From: Phycisphaerales bacterium
GTDB taxonomy: Bacteria; Planctomycetota; Phycisphaerae; Phycisphaerales; UBA1924
Assembly (NCBI GenBank): GCA_015487555.1
Contig: WFPK01000115.1
Coordinates: 1 to 64,000 of the forward strand
Length of the DNA stretch: 64,000 nt
Reading direction: 5' to 3'
Part shown: piece by piece, positions 29,408 through 37,495 of the stretch
Numbering within the stretch: the first letter of the stretch is position 1
Layout: each line of letters starts with the position of its first letter
Made by a program: the position numbers and the translations under genes
Notes under the pieces: model-generated
Database searches by the model: none
The model's input: the letters and a program-made list of their open reading frames with translations, nothing else
What the model was told of the DNA's origin: nothing

Positions 29408-29435
29408 TTGACAAATACCCGATACTGAATACACT
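29408..29435 (+). promoter_or_regulatory. Predicted sigma70-type promoter of the lysW operon leader
   Basis: TTGACA (29408-29413) - N16 - TACACT (29430-29435). Confidence 0.5.
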
Positions 29436-29443
29436 CACCCGCT

Positions 29444-29542
29444 ATGAACCAGTTCCACACCAACATGAAATCGACCAAATCGAAAGCCAAAGACGCCAAA
29501 CGCGTCTGGGTTGCGATGTTGGTCGAGGTGTGTATGAGCTAA
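29444..29542 (+). CDS. Candidate lysine-rich leader peptide (32 aa)
   Basis: Not in the ORF track (below 60 aa): MNQFHTNMKSTKSKAKDAKRVWVAMLVEVCMS*; five AAA Lys codons at positions 9, 12, 14, 16, 19. Confidence 0.5.
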   Translation: MNQFHTNMKSTKSKAKDAKRVWVAMLVEVCMS

Positions 29543-29574
29543 GTAAGTTCAACAACCAAGCCCAAGAACAAACG

Positions 29575-29604
29575 CACCCCTGACGCAGAATCAGGGGTGT
29601 TTTT
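29575..29604 (+). terminator. Intrinsic terminator/attenuator hairpin upstream of lysW
   Basis: CACCCCTGA-cgcagaa-TCAGGGGTG followed by TTTTT; perfect 9-bp stem. Confidence 0.85.
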
Positions 29605-29654
29605 CTGTATGTCCGTTTTACAAACTCGTTCCAAACCAATCAGGAGAATCAATC

Positions 29655-29852
29655 ATGAACCAAACAACAACCCAAGCCGAAACCATCGAAGCAACTTGCC
29701 CCGAATGTGACGCAGCGGTCGTCTTCGACCGCTCGCCACTCAACGGCGAGATCGCCAACTGCACCGACTGCACCGCCGAGCTCGAAGTGATCTGCGCCGA
29801 TCCCATCACCCTTGAACTCGCGCCCGAAGTCGAAGAAGACTGGGGCGAATAA
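29655..29852 (+). CDS. lysW: LysW-type amino-group carrier protein
   Basis: CPECDAAVVFDRSPLNGEIANCTDCTAELEVICADP...PEVEEDWGE; diagnostic EDWGE C-terminus. Confidence 0.95.
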   Translation: MNQTTTQAETIEATCPECDAAVVFDRSPLNGEIANCTDCTAELEVICADPITLELAPEVEEDWGE

Positions 29853-29893: not shown

Positions 29894-30781
29894 ATGCACA
29901 TCGCCATGACCTATACCCGATTGCGCACCGAAGAGCGGATGCTCCTTGATGCCTTCGAGCACCTCGGCGTGAACTGCACGCCGATTGATCTGCGGACAAT
30001 CGTTTTCAACCCACTGGTCCCCGGTGAGGGAGGGGGCCAGTGGGAAGATTACGATGCCGTCATTGATCGCTCGGTGAGCCTGACCAACACGCTGACTTCG
30101 GTCGCGATGCTCGAACACTTCGGCATCCGGTGCATCAACCCGCTCGGTGCGATCGAGATTTGTGCTGACAAGCTCGCTACCACGCTGGCGCTTGTTCGGG
30201 CGGGTGTGCCCACGCCTGCGATTCGTGTTGCGACCAATGCCCAGTCCGGGCTCGAAGCGATCGAAGCGATCGGATACCCAGCGGTCATCAAGCCAACGGT
30301 TGGGTCGTGGGGAAGGCTCGTCGCCCGGATCAACGATCGAGACGCAGCCGAAGCGATCCTCGAACACCGCGAGATACTCGGCTCTGTGCAACAAGGTGTG
30401 TTCTACATCCAGGAACACATCGACAAGCCAGACCGAGATATTCGCGTGTTCGTGGTTGGCGGCGAGCCCATCGCAGCGATTATGCGATCGAGCGCGCACT
30501 GGGTGACCAACACCGCCCGCGGCGCAACAGCGCAAGGCATGGAGATCACCGATGAGCTTCGGGAAATCTCGATCAACGCAGCAGCTGCGACGGGGGGCGA
30601 CATCGTGGCGGTCGATCTGCTCGAATGTCCTGATCGTGGGTTGTTGGTCAACGAGCTCAATCATTCGATGGAGTTTCGCAACTCGACCGAGACCACAGGC
30701 GTCAATATCCCCGAACTTGTCGCCCGCCATGTGGTGCGGATCGCTGAAGAGGCACGAGTTGAATCGGAGATTTTGGTATGA
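29894..30781 (+). CDS. lysX: LysX/ArgX-type ATP-grasp ligase
   Basis: YPAVIKPTVGSWGRLVARINDRDAAEAILEHRE, RDIRVFVVGGEPIAAIMR, LLVNELNHSMEFRNS. Confidence 0.9.
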   Translation: MHIAMTYTRLRTEERMLLDAFEHLGVNCTPIDLRTIVFNPLVPGEGGGQWEDYDAVIDRSVSLTNTLTSVAMLEHFGIRCINPLGAIEICADKLATTLALVRAGVPTPAIRVATNAQSGLEAIEAIGYPAVIKPTVGSWGRLVARINDRDAAEAILEHREILGSVQQGVFYIQEHIDKPDRDIRVFVVGGEPIAAIMRSSAHWVTNTARGATAQGMEITDELREISINAAAATGGDIVAVDLLECPDRGLLVNELNHSMEFRNSTETTGVNIPELVARHVVRIAEEARVESEILV

Positions 30782-31806
30782 CGACTCGCATCTCCATCGT
30801 CGGCGGCTCAGGCTACACCGGAGGCGAACTCCTGCGTCTGCTGCATATGCACCCGCAGACCCAGATCGCCCAGGTCTCGTCGCGCAGGCTCAAGGGTCAG
30901 CCGATCCATCGTTCGCATCCAAACCTGCGCGGGCATGTCGATGTGTTGTATTGCACGCCCGACGAGATCGAGCCCTGCGATGTGCTCTTTCTGTGCATGC
31001 CTCATGGCAAGGCTGCGGGCGAGATTGATCGTTGGCGAGCGCTCGCCCCGTTGGTCATCGACCTCTCCGCCGACTTTCGGCTGCGCGATGCCGGCAACTA
31101 TCAATCGTGGTATGGCGAGTCCCACCCATCACCTGAAACCCTCGCCGAGGCGACCTACGGGCTCCCCGAAATCGCCCGCGATCAACTCAATGATGCAAGT
31201 TTGATCTCAGGCGTCGGATGCAACGCCACCGCGATGACCCTCGCGCTGCTGCCACTGGCACGGGCCGGGCTGATCAAGCGGGCGATTGCTGATCTCAAGG
31301 TCGGCTCATCCGAAGCCGGGGCCGAGTCCAGCGCAGGTTCGCACCATCCTGTCCGCGCTCGGACGGCGAGAACCTACTCGCCAGCGGGGCATCGCCATCT
31401 CGCCGAAGTCTTCCAATCACTCGGCCAGTTCGACCTCGACGCCACCATCACCGCCATCGACATGGTGCGAGGCGTGCTCTGCACCGCCCACATCGAACCC
31501 ACCGAGCGCCTCGAAACCAAAGACCTCTGGAAACTCTATCGCCAGGCCTATACCAACGAACCCTTCGTTCGCATCGTCGCCGATCGTTCTGGGCCTAATC
31601 GGTTTCCCGATCCGCGCATCGTCGTCGGGTCAAACCACGCCGATGTCGGGTTTGCGATCGACGAACGATCGGGCCGAATCATCGCCCTGTGCGCCATCGA
31701 CAACCTCGTCAAAGGCGCAGCCGGCTCGGCGGTCCAATCCATGAACATTGCACTGGGCTTCAACGAAACCGCCGGGCTCACCTTCCCCGGACTCCACCCC
31801 GCATAA
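30778..31806 (+). CDS. N-acetyl-gamma-glutamyl/aminoadipyl-phosphate reductase (LysY/ArgC)
   Basis: ISIVGGSGYTGGELLRLLHMHPQTQIAQVSSR, DLSADFRLRDAGNYQSWYG, SGVGCNATAMTLALLPL, NLVKGAAGSAVQSMNIALGFNETAGL. Confidence 0.93.
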   Translation: MTTRISIVGGSGYTGGELLRLLHMHPQTQIAQVSSRRLKGQPIHRSHPNLRGHVDVLYCTPDEIEPCDVLFLCMPHGKAAGEIDRWRALAPLVIDLSADFRLRDAGNYQSWYGESHPSPETLAEATYGLPEIARDQLNDASLISGVGCNATAMTLALLPLARAGLIKRAIADLKVGSSEAGAESSAGSHHPVRARTARTYSPAGHRHLAEVFQSLGQFDLDATITAIDMVRGVLCTAHIEPTERLETKDLWKLYRQAYTNEPFVRIVADRSGPNRFPDPRIVVGSNHADVGFAIDERSGRIIALCAIDNLVKGAAGSAVQSMNIALGFNETAGLTFPGLHPA

Positions 31807-31816
31807 GGATATTTCA

Positions 31817-32659
31817 ATGACCACTACCCACACCCCCCACACCATCGTCATCAAGGTCGGAGGCGGCGAGGGCATCGACCCGACTGCCCTCACCGCCGAA
31901 ATCGCCGAGCTTACCAATGCCGGCAGCCGTGTTGTGCTTGTGCACGGTGGATCGCACGAAACCAATCAACTCGCCGACGCACTCGGGCATCCGACCCGGA
32001 CCATCATCAGCCCCAGCGGCAATCAATCCCGACGAACCGATCGGCAGACCCTCGACATCTTCAAGATGATCTACTGCGGCAAGGTCAACAAGACCATCGT
32101 CGAACACCTCCGAAGCGCAGGCGTCGATGCGATCGGACTCTCGGGGATCGACGCGGGCATCTGGATCGGCTCGCGCAAGTCGGCCATCCGCGCGGTCGAA
32201 GACGGGCGCACGATCATCATCCGCGATGACCTCTCGGGCAGGGTCGAATCGGTCGATGCTGATTTTCTCAATCTGCTCCTTGATGCCGGGCGTATGCCGG
32301 TGTTGACGCCGCCGGCGATCACGCCCGAGGGCATCGCGATCAATGTCGATGCCGATCGGGCCGCCTCGGCGACGGCACGGGCATTGCGGGCCGATGAACT
32401 CTTGCTGCTTTCCAATGTTGCGGGCTTGCTGCGCGATCATACTGATCCCGATTCATTGATTGAAACCGTCGAGCATTCCACGCTCGAAGATGCACAAGGT
32501 GCTGCCAAGGGGCGGATGAAGAACAAGGTGCTCGCTGCCCAAGAGGCCATCATCGGCGGCGTCCCCCGCGTCACCATCGGCTCGGCCGGTGGCATTCGCC
32601 CCATCGAACGGGCCCGCAACGGTGCAGGAACAACCTTTGTGCAGGGAGTCGCGCCATGA
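31817..32659 (+). CDS. lysZ: LysZ/ArgB-type amino acid kinase
   Basis: IVIKVGGGEGIDPTAL, VVLVHGGSHETNQLADALGHPTRTI, INVDADRAASATARALRADELLLLSNVAGLL. Confidence 0.9.
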   Translation: MTTTHTPHTIVIKVGGGEGIDPTALTAEIAELTNAGSRVVLVHGGSHETNQLADALGHPTRTIISPSGNQSRRTDRQTLDIFKMIYCGKVNKTIVEHLRSAGVDAIGLSGIDAGIWIGSRKSAIRAVEDGRTIIIRDDLSGRVESVDADFLNLLLDAGRMPVLTPPAITPEGIAINVDADRAASATARALRADELLLLSNVAGLLRDHTDPDSLIETVEHSTLEDAQGAAKGRMKNKVLAAQEAIIGGVPRVTIGSAGGIRPIERARNGAGTTFVQGVAP

Positions 32660-33744
32660 ACCAAGAAGTCCAGTTTTTGTTCGATCTGGTCAGCGCCCAG
32701 AGTTTCTCAGGCAGCGAACAACCCGCAGCTGCGGTCTTTGTGCGCCATGCAGATTCATTTGGATTCGACACTGAGATTGACCAGGTCGGCAACGCCATCG
32801 CCCATCGCGGCGCATCGGCGGATGATGCCGATATTCATATCGTCCTGCTCGGACACATCGACACCGTCCCCGGCGACATCCCCGTCCGCATCGACGCCGG
32901 CATCCTGCACGGTCGAGGCGCGGTCGATGCCAAAGGCCCGCTCGCCGCGATGCTCATCGCCGCGTCGCGCGCAGAGTTGCCCAGTGGCGTTCGATTGACG
33001 ATTGCCGGGGCAGTGGGGGAGGAAGCTGCGGGCTCGATCGGTGCTCGCCATCTCGTTGAGCAATGGCGACCCGACGCCTGCATCATCGCCGAACCCAGCA
33101 GCGCCCAAGGCGTGACCCTGGGATACAAAGGACGACTCCTCGCCAGAGCGGTCGCCTCATGCCCGAACACCCATTCCGCAGGCAAAGACCCGTCGGCCAG
33201 CGACGAGCTCATCGCATGGTGGGGCGCGGTGCAGCGGCATGTCGATGCGTTCAACGCTCGTCCAACCCGCGGGTTCGATCAAATCCAGGCGAGCATCGAG
33301 CGGATGAGCTCGTCATGCGACGGGCTCACGCAGCGGGCGATCCTTGAAACCGGGTTTCGGCTCCCGCCGACGATGGGCCCTGATGAGCTTATTGCGCTGC
33401 TTGAATCGTTGCCCGCCGAGCGCATCACGATCGAGTTCTCCGGGGCCGAGCATGCCCACGCGACCACGCGCAACGACCCTGTTGTTCGCGCACTTTCCTC
33501 CGCCATCCGATCGCTCGGGTTCACGCCTCGCCCCAAGCTCAAGACCGGCACCGCCGATCTCAATGTCGTCGCGCCGATCTGGCAATGCCCCATCGCCGCC
33601 TATGGCCCCGGCGACAGCAGCCTCGATCACACCCCCAACGAGCACCTGCATCTCGAAGAGTATCAAAGCTCAATCCAGGTGCTCACGCGGGCGATCGCGT
33701 CGCTTGCGACCGAGCTTATCGGGGTAGAGGCTGCAAGCTGCTGA
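32656..33744 (+). CDS. lysK: LysK-type [LysW]-lysine/ornithine hydrolase (M20 family)
   Basis: IVLLGHIDTVPGDIPVRIDAGILHGRGAVDAKGPLAAMLIAA, KLKTGTADLNVVAPIWQCPIAAYGPGDSSLDHTPNEHLHLEEY. Confidence 0.9.
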   Translation: MNQEVQFLFDLVSAQSFSGSEQPAAAVFVRHADSFGFDTEIDQVGNAIAHRGASADDADIHIVLLGHIDTVPGDIPVRIDAGILHGRGAVDAKGPLAAMLIAASRAELPSGVRLTIAGAVGEEAAGSIGARHLVEQWRPDACIIAEPSSAQGVTLGYKGRLLARAVASCPNTHSAGKDPSASDELIAWWGAVQRHVDAFNARPTRGFDQIQASIERMSSSCDGLTQRAILETGFRLPPTMGPDELIALLESLPAERITIEFSGAEHAHATTRNDPVVRALSSAIRSLGFTPRPKLKTGTADLNVVAPIWQCPIAAYGPGDSSLDHTPNEHLHLEEYQSSIQVLTRAIASLATELIGVEAASC

Positions 33745-35756: not shown

Positions 35757-36461
35757 ATGGCCAAATCAGATGCATCAGCAAGCAGGTCGCCGGTTGCGGG
35801 ATACTTTGTGGGGGTCGGCTTTTTGATTCTCGCGAGCGTCTTCCTGTTGGGAAAGTCATCGGTTGAGATTCCGTTGACCGAGCAACCCCCAGTTCGTGCC
35901 GAGCAGATCATGCCTGGTGCCTTTCGTGTTGCGCTGGCCGACCCTCCGATGGTGAATATCGGGACTTACGACCAGCGCTGCAACGATTGCCATGGGCTCT
36001 TTGAAAATACACGCCCCGAGTATCGTGAGCTGACCCAGCACACCAACATCATCCTCGATCATGGGATCAACGATGGGTGCCTCAACTGCCACGATAAGGG
36101 GGATCGCGAAAAACTTACACTCCGTGGCGGGGGGACGGTCGGGTTCGATCAGGTCGCCCAGCTTTGCGCCCAGTGCCACGGGCCGATCTACCGGGATTGG
36201 CAAAAAGGATCGCACGGCAAGACGATCGGGTATTGGGACACCGATCTGGGCGAGGCGACCAAGCTGACCTGCTCGCAATGCCATGATCCGCACAGCCCGT
36301 CCTTCAAACCAATGCCACCCTTGCCCGGGCCTCATACATTGCGGATGGGTAAGCATTATGCAGATCATGGCGATCTGGTGGACGACAAGAACCCGCTTCA
36401 GCGTTGGCGTCTCGATGAGCACGCCGAATCAGACAGTGCCGAGCAGGGGGGGGACCACTGA
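35757..36461 (+). CDS. Membrane-anchored tetrahaem cytochrome c
   Basis: N-terminal TM; CNDCH, CLNCH, CAQCH, CSQCH. Confidence 0.88.
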   Translation: MAKSDASASRSPVAGYFVGVGFLILASVFLLGKSSVEIPLTEQPPVRAEQIMPGAFRVALADPPMVNIGTYDQRCNDCHGLFENTRPEYRELTQHTNIILDHGINDGCLNCHDKGDREKLTLRGGGTVGFDQVAQLCAQCHGPIYRDWQKGSHGKTIGYWDTDLGEATKLTCSQCHDPHSPSFKPMPPLPGPHTLRMGKHYADHGDLVDDKNPLQRWRLDEHAESDSAEQGGDH

Positions 36462-37495
36462 TGCAGCTACCCATCATGACGAACACAACGAACGAGGATG
36501 GATGCCCAACACGCCAGTACGCCTCTCGCCCTGGGATGACCCGCCGGAGCTTTCTTCGCCGAGGCACCGCAGCGACTGGAGCGGTGGCTGCGATTGCCGC
36601 TTCGCTGAGCCCGCTGCGTGAGCTGGCCGATACCGATGAGTTCACCGTCGCCAACTTCATCCAGAAGCACTACAAGGAGATGGATGGGCAGGATATGGCC
36701 AAGGCCCTTGAGCGTATCTCGGCTCAGGTGGAGAAGCGATACGATATTCGTCCCAACATCCGCGATATCAAGCCGATGGATGGCGTGGAGTTCGTCTACG
36801 CGCTCAACCTCACGCGGTGCATCGGGTGTCGAAAATGTGTCCACGCATGTGTCGCAGAGAACAATCAGTCTCGAAGCCCCGAGATCCAATACATCCGTGT
36901 GCTTGAGATGCCCCGAGGCACCAACGATATCGAGCAAGGTAACCACCACTACCAACGCGCCACGGTGCCCTCGGAAGATCACTACTACATGCCGATTCAG
37001 TGCCATCAGTGTGCAAGTCCGCCTTGTGTCAAGGTCTGCCCGGTCGAGGCGACCTGGCAAGAGCCCGATGGGATCACGGTTATTGACTACGACTGGTGCA
37101 TCGGGTGTCGGTATTGCGAAGCGGCGTGTCCATACTGGGCCAGAAGATTCAACTTCTCCAAGCCTTCGATCCCGAACGACAAAATCAACCCGAACATGAG
37201 CTACCTCTCGAACCGTCCGCGTTCCAAAGGCGTGATGGAGAAGTGCACCTTCTGCCTCCATCGCACCCGCGAGGGCAAAATGCCTGCATGTCTTGAGGTC
37301 TGTCCGACGGGGGCTCGCAAGTTCGGCAATATCCTCGATCCAGATTCGGATGTACGCAAGATTCTCGAATCCAAGCGGGTCTTCGTGCTCAAGCAGGACT
37401 TGGGTACGCTGCCAAGGTTCTTCTACTACTTCGATGAACGCGATCCGATCAATGAAAAGGTTCCCACAGGTACTCCAAGCGGGGGTGACGCATGA
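36461..37495 (+). CDS. Tat-exported 4Fe-4S ferredoxin subunit (NrfC/PsrB-like)
   Basis: TRRSFLRRGTAATGAVAAIAA; CIGCRKCVHACVAE, CHQCASPPCVKVCP, CIGCRYCEAACPY, CTFCLHRTREGKMPACLEVCP. Confidence 0.92.
   Translation: MQLPIMTNTTNEDGCPTRQYASRPGMTRRSFLRRGTAATGAVAAIAASLSPLRELADTDEFTVANFIQKHYKEMDGQDMAKALERISAQVEKRYDIRPNIRDIKPMDGVEFVYALNLTRCIGCRKCVHACVAENNQSRSPEIQYIRVLEMPRGTNDIEQGNHHYQRATVPSEDHYYMPIQCHQCASPPCVKVCPVEATWQEPDGITVIDYDWCIGCRYCEAACPYWARRFNFSKPSIPNDKINPNMSYLSNRPRSKGVMEKCTFCLHRTREGKMPACLEVCPTGARKFGNILDPDSDVRKILESKRVFVLKQDLGTLPRFFYYFDERDPINEKVPTGTPSGGDA

Follow-up and report, generated by a model that had tools for sequence, protein, structure and literature searches.

In attenuators of the trp, his and leu type the supply of an amino acid is read through a short run of its own codons. 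The stretch of Phycisphaerales DNA analysed here (64,000 nucleotides, called the window; contig C115 of genome G000, which is 2.64 Mb and 93% complete) raises the question of whether a lysine operon is read in this way. Its lysW gene is preceded by a lysine-codon-rich open reading frame (ORF) and an intrinsic terminator, which a sequence-only reading had put forward as a candidate transcription attenuator. We ask here what these elements are, whether relatives keep them, which RNA helices could form a switch, and where else the same leader occurs.

The leader, the terminator and the operon behind them

These elements lie ahead of lysW:

29408-29435, + strand: predicted sigma-70-like promoter, TTGACA-N16-TACACT (consensus match)
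29444-29542, + strand: leader peptide ORF of 32 codons with five AAA Lys codons (Lys enrichment; almost every relative has a Lys-rich ORF at this position)
29468-29500, + strand: Lys codon cluster, the presumed stall site of a starved ribosome
29574-29604, + strand: intrinsic terminator, GCACCCCTGA-loop-TCAGGGGTGT followed by a T run (terminator scan; covarying helix)

The promoter matches the consensus at 10 of 12 positions, where 0.5 such matches would be expected by chance in the scanned region. Since the leader ATG lies only 8 nt downstream of the -10 hexamer, the leader mRNA is probably leaderless; among the other loci described below, about 35 of 82 have 6-13 nt between the best predicted -10 and the first in-frame ATG. 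The ORF translates as MNQFHTNMKSTKSKAKDAKRVWVAMLVEVCMS, with AAA at codons 9, 12, 14, 16 and 19, that is, five Lys within 11 positions. The terminator stem has ten pairs (29574-29583 with 29591-29600), with T at 29600-29604, and ends 50 nt before lysW. Both the 32-codon ORF with its five AAA codons and a perfect terminator at this distance from lysW had been read from the letters of the window, and both are borne out. The 233-nt stretch as a whole folds much more strongly than its shuffles (z -3.98). The window's Lys cluster, taken alone, is only mildly unusual, being matched by 62 of 2000 dinucleotide shuffles (3%), and for this reason it is the comparison across genomes, not the window, that carries the claim.

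Five genes follow on the same strand:

29655-29852, + strand: lysW, amino-group carrier protein, 65 aa (TIGR01206, over cut-off)
29894-30781, + strand: lysX (TIGR02144, over cut-off; nearest solved structure 3vpd)
30778-31806, + strand: lysY/argC-type reductase (TIGR01850, over cut-off)
31841-32659, + strand: lysZ, [LysW]-aminoadipate kinase (NF010659, over cut-off; start approximate, mechanical ORF from 31748)
32656-33744, + strand: lysK, [LysW]-lysine hydrolase (NF003367, over cut-off)

LysX, LysZ and LysK all exceed the cut-offs of lysine-specific models, and LysX scores 278 bits against 3vpd, which we take to be the Thermus LysX structure, versus 164 bits against 3vpb, presumably the Sulfolobus ArgX structure. 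On these grounds an ArgX-type role in arginine synthesis was rejected. Consistent with this assignment, lysA was not found in the window genome and is anti-correlated with lysW across the family, occurring in 14 of 92 genomes with lysW versus 36 of 71 without it (Fisher P 1e-6). In two relatives (G026 and G085) a homocitrate synthase gene follows lysK in the same operon. Weighing against the assignment, no recognisable homocitrate synthase was found in the window genus itself. Further along the window (35757-37495), a multihaem-cytochrome-like protein is encoded and after it a DsrO/QrcC-like iron-sulfur protein; the two probably belong to a respiratory complex.

Conservation of the leader and its codons

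The relatives compared were 163 genomes of the same family, in 92 of which lysW was detected. Nearly all of these 92 have a short Lys-rich ORF ahead of lysW, usually with a terminator after it, so that the comparison of lysW upstream regions in relatives proposed in the sequence-only reading, once run, returned a conserved K-rich ORF and terminator. Both elements were recovered at 82 loci from 40 genus-level groups; loci without both reflect contig ends or a failed terminator scan (for example L022, L133, L137, L150, L155, L166, L168 and L171), and most of them still have the Lys-rich ORF. Of 88 lysW upstream regions, 69 hold at least four Lys within 11 codons, a density reached by 2.1% of dinucleotide shuffles, by 2 of the 88 reverse complements and by none of 38 lysX segments. 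Within the leader ORFs, AAA triplets occur 323 times in frame versus 40 and 37 times in the other two frames. The Lys codons stay in frame across genera even though their spacing and the surrounding sequence vary, and the peptide apart from them is poorly conserved. In distant genera the RNA sequence of the leader has diverged almost fully, and what persists is the Lys codons and the complementarity of the strands described below. Judged by sequence, then, the leader is enriched in codons for the predicted end product of the pathway that follows it, as is typical of attenuators, and its conservation would mark the operon as belonging to the lysine and not the arginine pathway.

The choice between the two lysine codons is itself distinctive. 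With lysX genes and the window operon as the baseline for codon use, the 82 leaders contain 323 AAA and 36 AAG codons (90% AAA), compared with 17 AAA and 134 AAG (11% AAA) in lysX of the same genomes. The window genome carries both tRNA-Lys(UUU) and tRNA-Lys(CUU). By the wobble rules AAA is read solely by tRNA-Lys(UUU), which may therefore be the isoacceptor that the leader senses. A-rich codons may instead be preferred because they leave the path of the ribosome free of structure.

Alternative helices and the proposed switch

Three strands from the fourth Lys codon to the terminator loop can pair in mutually exclusive ways:

29492-29496, + strand: strand 1 (GACGC), immediately 3' of Lys codon 16, the fourth of the five, and partner of strand 2 in hairpin 1:2 (folding, alignment)
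29502-29510, + strand: strand 2, GCGTCTGGG, 5' side of the antiterminator (pairs better with its own strand 3 than with those of other genera)
29578-29586, + strand: strand 3, CCCTGACGC, 3' side of the antiterminator, overlapping the 5' arm of the terminator and its loop (pairing tests, folding)

The conserved antiterminator is GCGUCUGGG with CCCUGACGC, the latter lying across the terminator 5' arm and loop. In an alignment of 36 leaders, hairpin 1:2 (29492-29496 with 29502-29506) is paired in 99.4% of cells and, being nearly invariant, adds little covariation, and the terminator helix covaries, with changes on both sides in 8 of its 10 pairs. The antiterminator was tested without an alignment, by pairing the 60 nt that follow the final Lys codon with the terminator 5' half at one locus per genus. 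Duplexes between a leader's own strands average -27.5 kcal/mol, versus -22.3 (sd 0.56) with permuted partners, a z of -9.4 that is not an exact probability, the genera being related; the control regions do not show such an effect (z +3.1 before the Lys codons, z +0.6 after the terminator). Ungapped scoring against the terminator 5' arm and loop gives the same picture, 21.6 versus 17.5 for permuted partners (sd 0.5; maximum 19.5 in 10,000), over 61 distinct strand 2/strand 3 pairs. Pairs as different as GGGTGTCCGGG/CCCGGACACCC (L024), AGCGTCCAAGG/CCTTGGATGCT (L126) and GATCTCCGGCG/CGCCGGAGATC (L039) illustrate how far the strands have changed.

Folding of the RNA ahead of a ribosome placed along the leader connects these helices to the Lys codons. 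When the A-site is set on Lys codons 9, 12, 14 or 16 of the window and the RNA extends to the terminator loop, the antiterminator forms with P 0.86-0.94; with the A-site after codon 18 it does not form. Without a ribosome, the leader RNA of the window folds into a long 1:2 hairpin and the terminator (P 0.98). Across the 82 loci, the fraction of the terminator 5' arm held by upstream RNA falls from 0.80 with the ribosome at the first Lys of the cluster to 0.67 at the last Lys and 0.32 at the stop codon; RNA without any ribosome holds 0.67 of the arm, and the prediction for that state is therefore mixed. This mixed prediction and two further features of the folding weigh against the model. In the window, a complete terminator is favoured at equilibrium in every state (P 0.96-0.98), so the switch would need kinetic capture, with the antiterminator forming first. 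Moreover, the stop codon of the window leader is 30 nt beyond strand 2, and because a ribosome there leaves strand 2 uncovered, the model relies on hairpin 1:2 re-forming behind it.

What these comparisons and foldings establish by computation is that the anatomy is that of an attenuator and is conserved, that terminator and antiterminator covary, and that the Lys codons are placed to suit the helices. As predicted by folding and alignment, the terminator stands between the ORF and lysW, the antiterminator excludes it, and the 1:2 hairpin lies over the Lys codons. From this anatomy we infer that the leader ORF is translated, that ribosomes stall in it, that transcription terminates behind it and that the operon responds to lysine. 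Transcription would begin very close to the leader ATG, and a ribosome would then enter the Lys-rich ORF and start to translate it. With lysyl-tRNA plentiful, the ribosome would reach the stop codon, strand 2 would not be free for strand 3, the terminator would form and the operon would be off. With lysyl-tRNA scarce, the ribosome would pause at the AAA codons and mask strand 1; strand 2 would then pair with strand 3 ahead of the synthesis of the terminator 3' arm, and with the antiterminator in place RNA polymerase would read through into lysW-lysX-lysY-lysZ-lysK. Leader and terminator together almost certainly make up a switch that would allow transcription of the operon only when lysine is scarce. 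That the switch is a ribosome-mediated transcription attenuator, sensing charged lysyl-tRNA and controlling the LysW lysine operon, we hold to be very probable, and conservation and covariation strongly support the leader-peptide attenuator that the sequence-only reading had proposed.

The antiterminator named in that reading was a different one, GGTGTGT (29527-29533) with ACGCACC (29572-29578). This helix can form in the window, with one G-U pair, when the ribosome is at codons 2-6 or 20-24 (P 0.76-0.93 at 20-24), but its P is 0.00 for an A-site at Lys codon 9, 12, 14 or 16, and among 15 loci checked it occurs only in the window (L002) and its closest relative (L003). We therefore rejected it and regard it as extremely unlikely to be the antiterminator; in the simulation a ribosome on the Lys codons does free a terminator-blocking helix, as the earlier proposal expected, but that helix is 29502-29510 with 29578-29586.

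Three further readings would remove or add to the role of the stalled ribosome. A leader working without translation, as a metabolite-binding riboswitch or a protein-bound RNA with an incidental Lys-rich ORF, would accord with the extensive structure of the region (the shuffle z-score given above) and the strong conservation of hairpin 1:2. Neither the lysine riboswitch (RF00168) nor the T-box covariance models match in the leader, however, and its identification as a known RNA family was rejected, as no Rfam family reaches its gathering score (the best sub-threshold match is sraL, E 0.86). The Lys codons, moreover, keep their frame while spacing and flanks vary between genera, and they and the strand pairing are retained where nearly all of the RNA sequence has diverged, all of which makes a translation-independent leader very unlikely. 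Action of the leader peptide in trans, beside or in place of attenuation, has a precedent in the trpL leader peptide of Sinorhizobium meliloti (PMC7298713), but a peptide so poorly conserved between genera outside its Lys codons makes this highly improbable here. As for a plain intergenic terminator next to a chance ORF, without lysine control, an equally dense Lys cluster does arise in 3% of window shuffles; the conservation of Lys-rich ORF, terminator and covarying alternative helices over 40 genera, and the re-use of the leader unit ahead of other lysine-linked genes, leave coincidence scarcely credible. The preferred reading is thus the attenuator with strands 2 and 3 as its antiterminator.

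Leader copies away from lysW and relation to known systems

Used as a search probe, the leader turned up two genes away from lysW, for an unlinked homocitrate synthase and for a citrate-synthase-like protein. In G097 (locus L230, on the minus strand of G097:C38, upstream of 3265) the homocitrate synthase gene has its own terminator and its own leader, which ends ..ESKLSKAKGP before the stop codon. A covariance model of the leader found further copies away from lysW; in G110 and G111 (98 and 95 bits) they precede a citrate synthase family protein (PF00285), whose nearest solved structure is the citryl-CoA lyase 6hxp (90 bits):

G110:C11:37986-38855 (L264): citrate-synthase/citryl-CoA-lyase-family protein
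G111:C3:7018-7872 (L265): citrate-synthase/citryl-CoA-lyase-family protein
L308-L316: further members

The subfamily has 11 strong members in 11 genomes. Its gene lies directly after lysK in G033, G153, G154 and G064, and is preceded by a Lys-codon ORF and terminator in G110, G111, G177, G080, G081 and G121; the ORF ahead of it in G018 contains just two Lys. A clear HMGL-family homocitrate synthase over cut-off is present in only 4 of 61 sampled family genomes, and because most thus have none, we regard the citrate-synthase-like protein as a candidate non-orthologous homocitrate synthase, one that could supply the missing first step of lysine synthesis. In the window genus neither LeuA nor an HMGL-family homocitrate synthase was found; the search returned only one HMG-CoA-lyase-like protein per genome. 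The window genome likewise yielded no member of the citrate-synthase-like subfamily, and has two ordinary citrate synthases. We propose tentatively, with slightly more doubt than confidence, that the leader marks a Phycisphaerales lysine regulon in which the citrate-synthase-like member replaces the HMGL-family enzyme and lysine is read via AAA, a Lys codon rare in the lysX genes of these genomes. Two other copies (L266, G009:C15:13990-14126; L267, G015:C36:151944-152081) comprise a Lys leader, MTLKQFKSKQSKGIKHARAIVLALNGWV, and a terminator ahead of a glycosyltransferase-like gene, which is no obvious lysine gene. Matches below about 30 bits (L268, L270-L275) were discarded, being mostly unrelated terminators with no convincing Lys leader.

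Chloroflexota lysW genes also have leaders (L075, L092-L119), in which a short ORF with a dense Lys motif, KKAKK or KKVKK, is followed by a terminator-pairing strand and then lysW. In one example MSYASKKAKKTRTH ends at its stop codon and is followed immediately by GTATGGGC, which pairs with the terminator at GCCCATAC. Their own pairing is modestly stronger than permuted pairing (-13.9 versus -12.5, sd 0.36; z about -3.9), and their Lys codons are 100 AAG and 12 AAA. They bear no sequence resemblance to the Phycisphaerales leaders, strand 2 comes right after the stop codon, and covariation is weaker. Three of the Chloroflexota loci (L071, L078 and L093) have a tandem pair of Lys-leader and terminator units before lysW.

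The conserved leader would indicate, from genome data, that the LysW operon of mostly uncultured bacteria answers to lysine, and the many diverged leaders offer a natural data set on how attenuator function is kept under sequence change. The literature searched held nothing relevant on the Thermus leader, on LysW together with attenuation or on LysW in Planctomycetota, and no account of lysine genes under amino-acid attenuation in either Planctomycetota or Chloroflexota; one match applies the name lysW to an unrelated NhaC-type transporter. The lysine attenuator is new for this clade, but its kind is already known. Tsubouchi et al. 2005 (J Biol Chem) reportedly described a lysine leader-peptide attenuator at the LysW-type lysine cluster of Thermus thermophilus, whereas the sequence-only reading knew of no described example. 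That system reportedly shares with ours a Lys-codon leader peptide, a LysW-pathway cluster and transcription attenuation. It belongs to another phylum, and the leader described here comes directly ahead of lysW, is probably leaderless and has AAA for most of its Lys codons.

The enterobacterial trp, his and leu attenuators have in common with the window leader a run of amino-acid codons in a short ORF and the set of 1:2, 2:3 (antiterminator) and 3:4 (terminator) helices. Unlike them, the window leader would sense Lys, has no room for a Shine-Dalgarno sequence before its ATG, extends strand 3 into the terminator loop and places its stop codon well past strand 2. The lysine riboswitch (L box, RF00168) also controls lysine genes via a terminator, whereas here the proposed sensor is a Lys-codon ORF. 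Closest in the start of the transcript are the leaderless attenuators of S. meliloti trpL (PMC7298713) and C. glutamicum ilvBNC (PMC11857589), whose transcripts begin on the leader ATG or 1 nt away from it. The window leader is predicted to resemble them in starting near its ATG, and differs from them in amino acid, operon and phylum.
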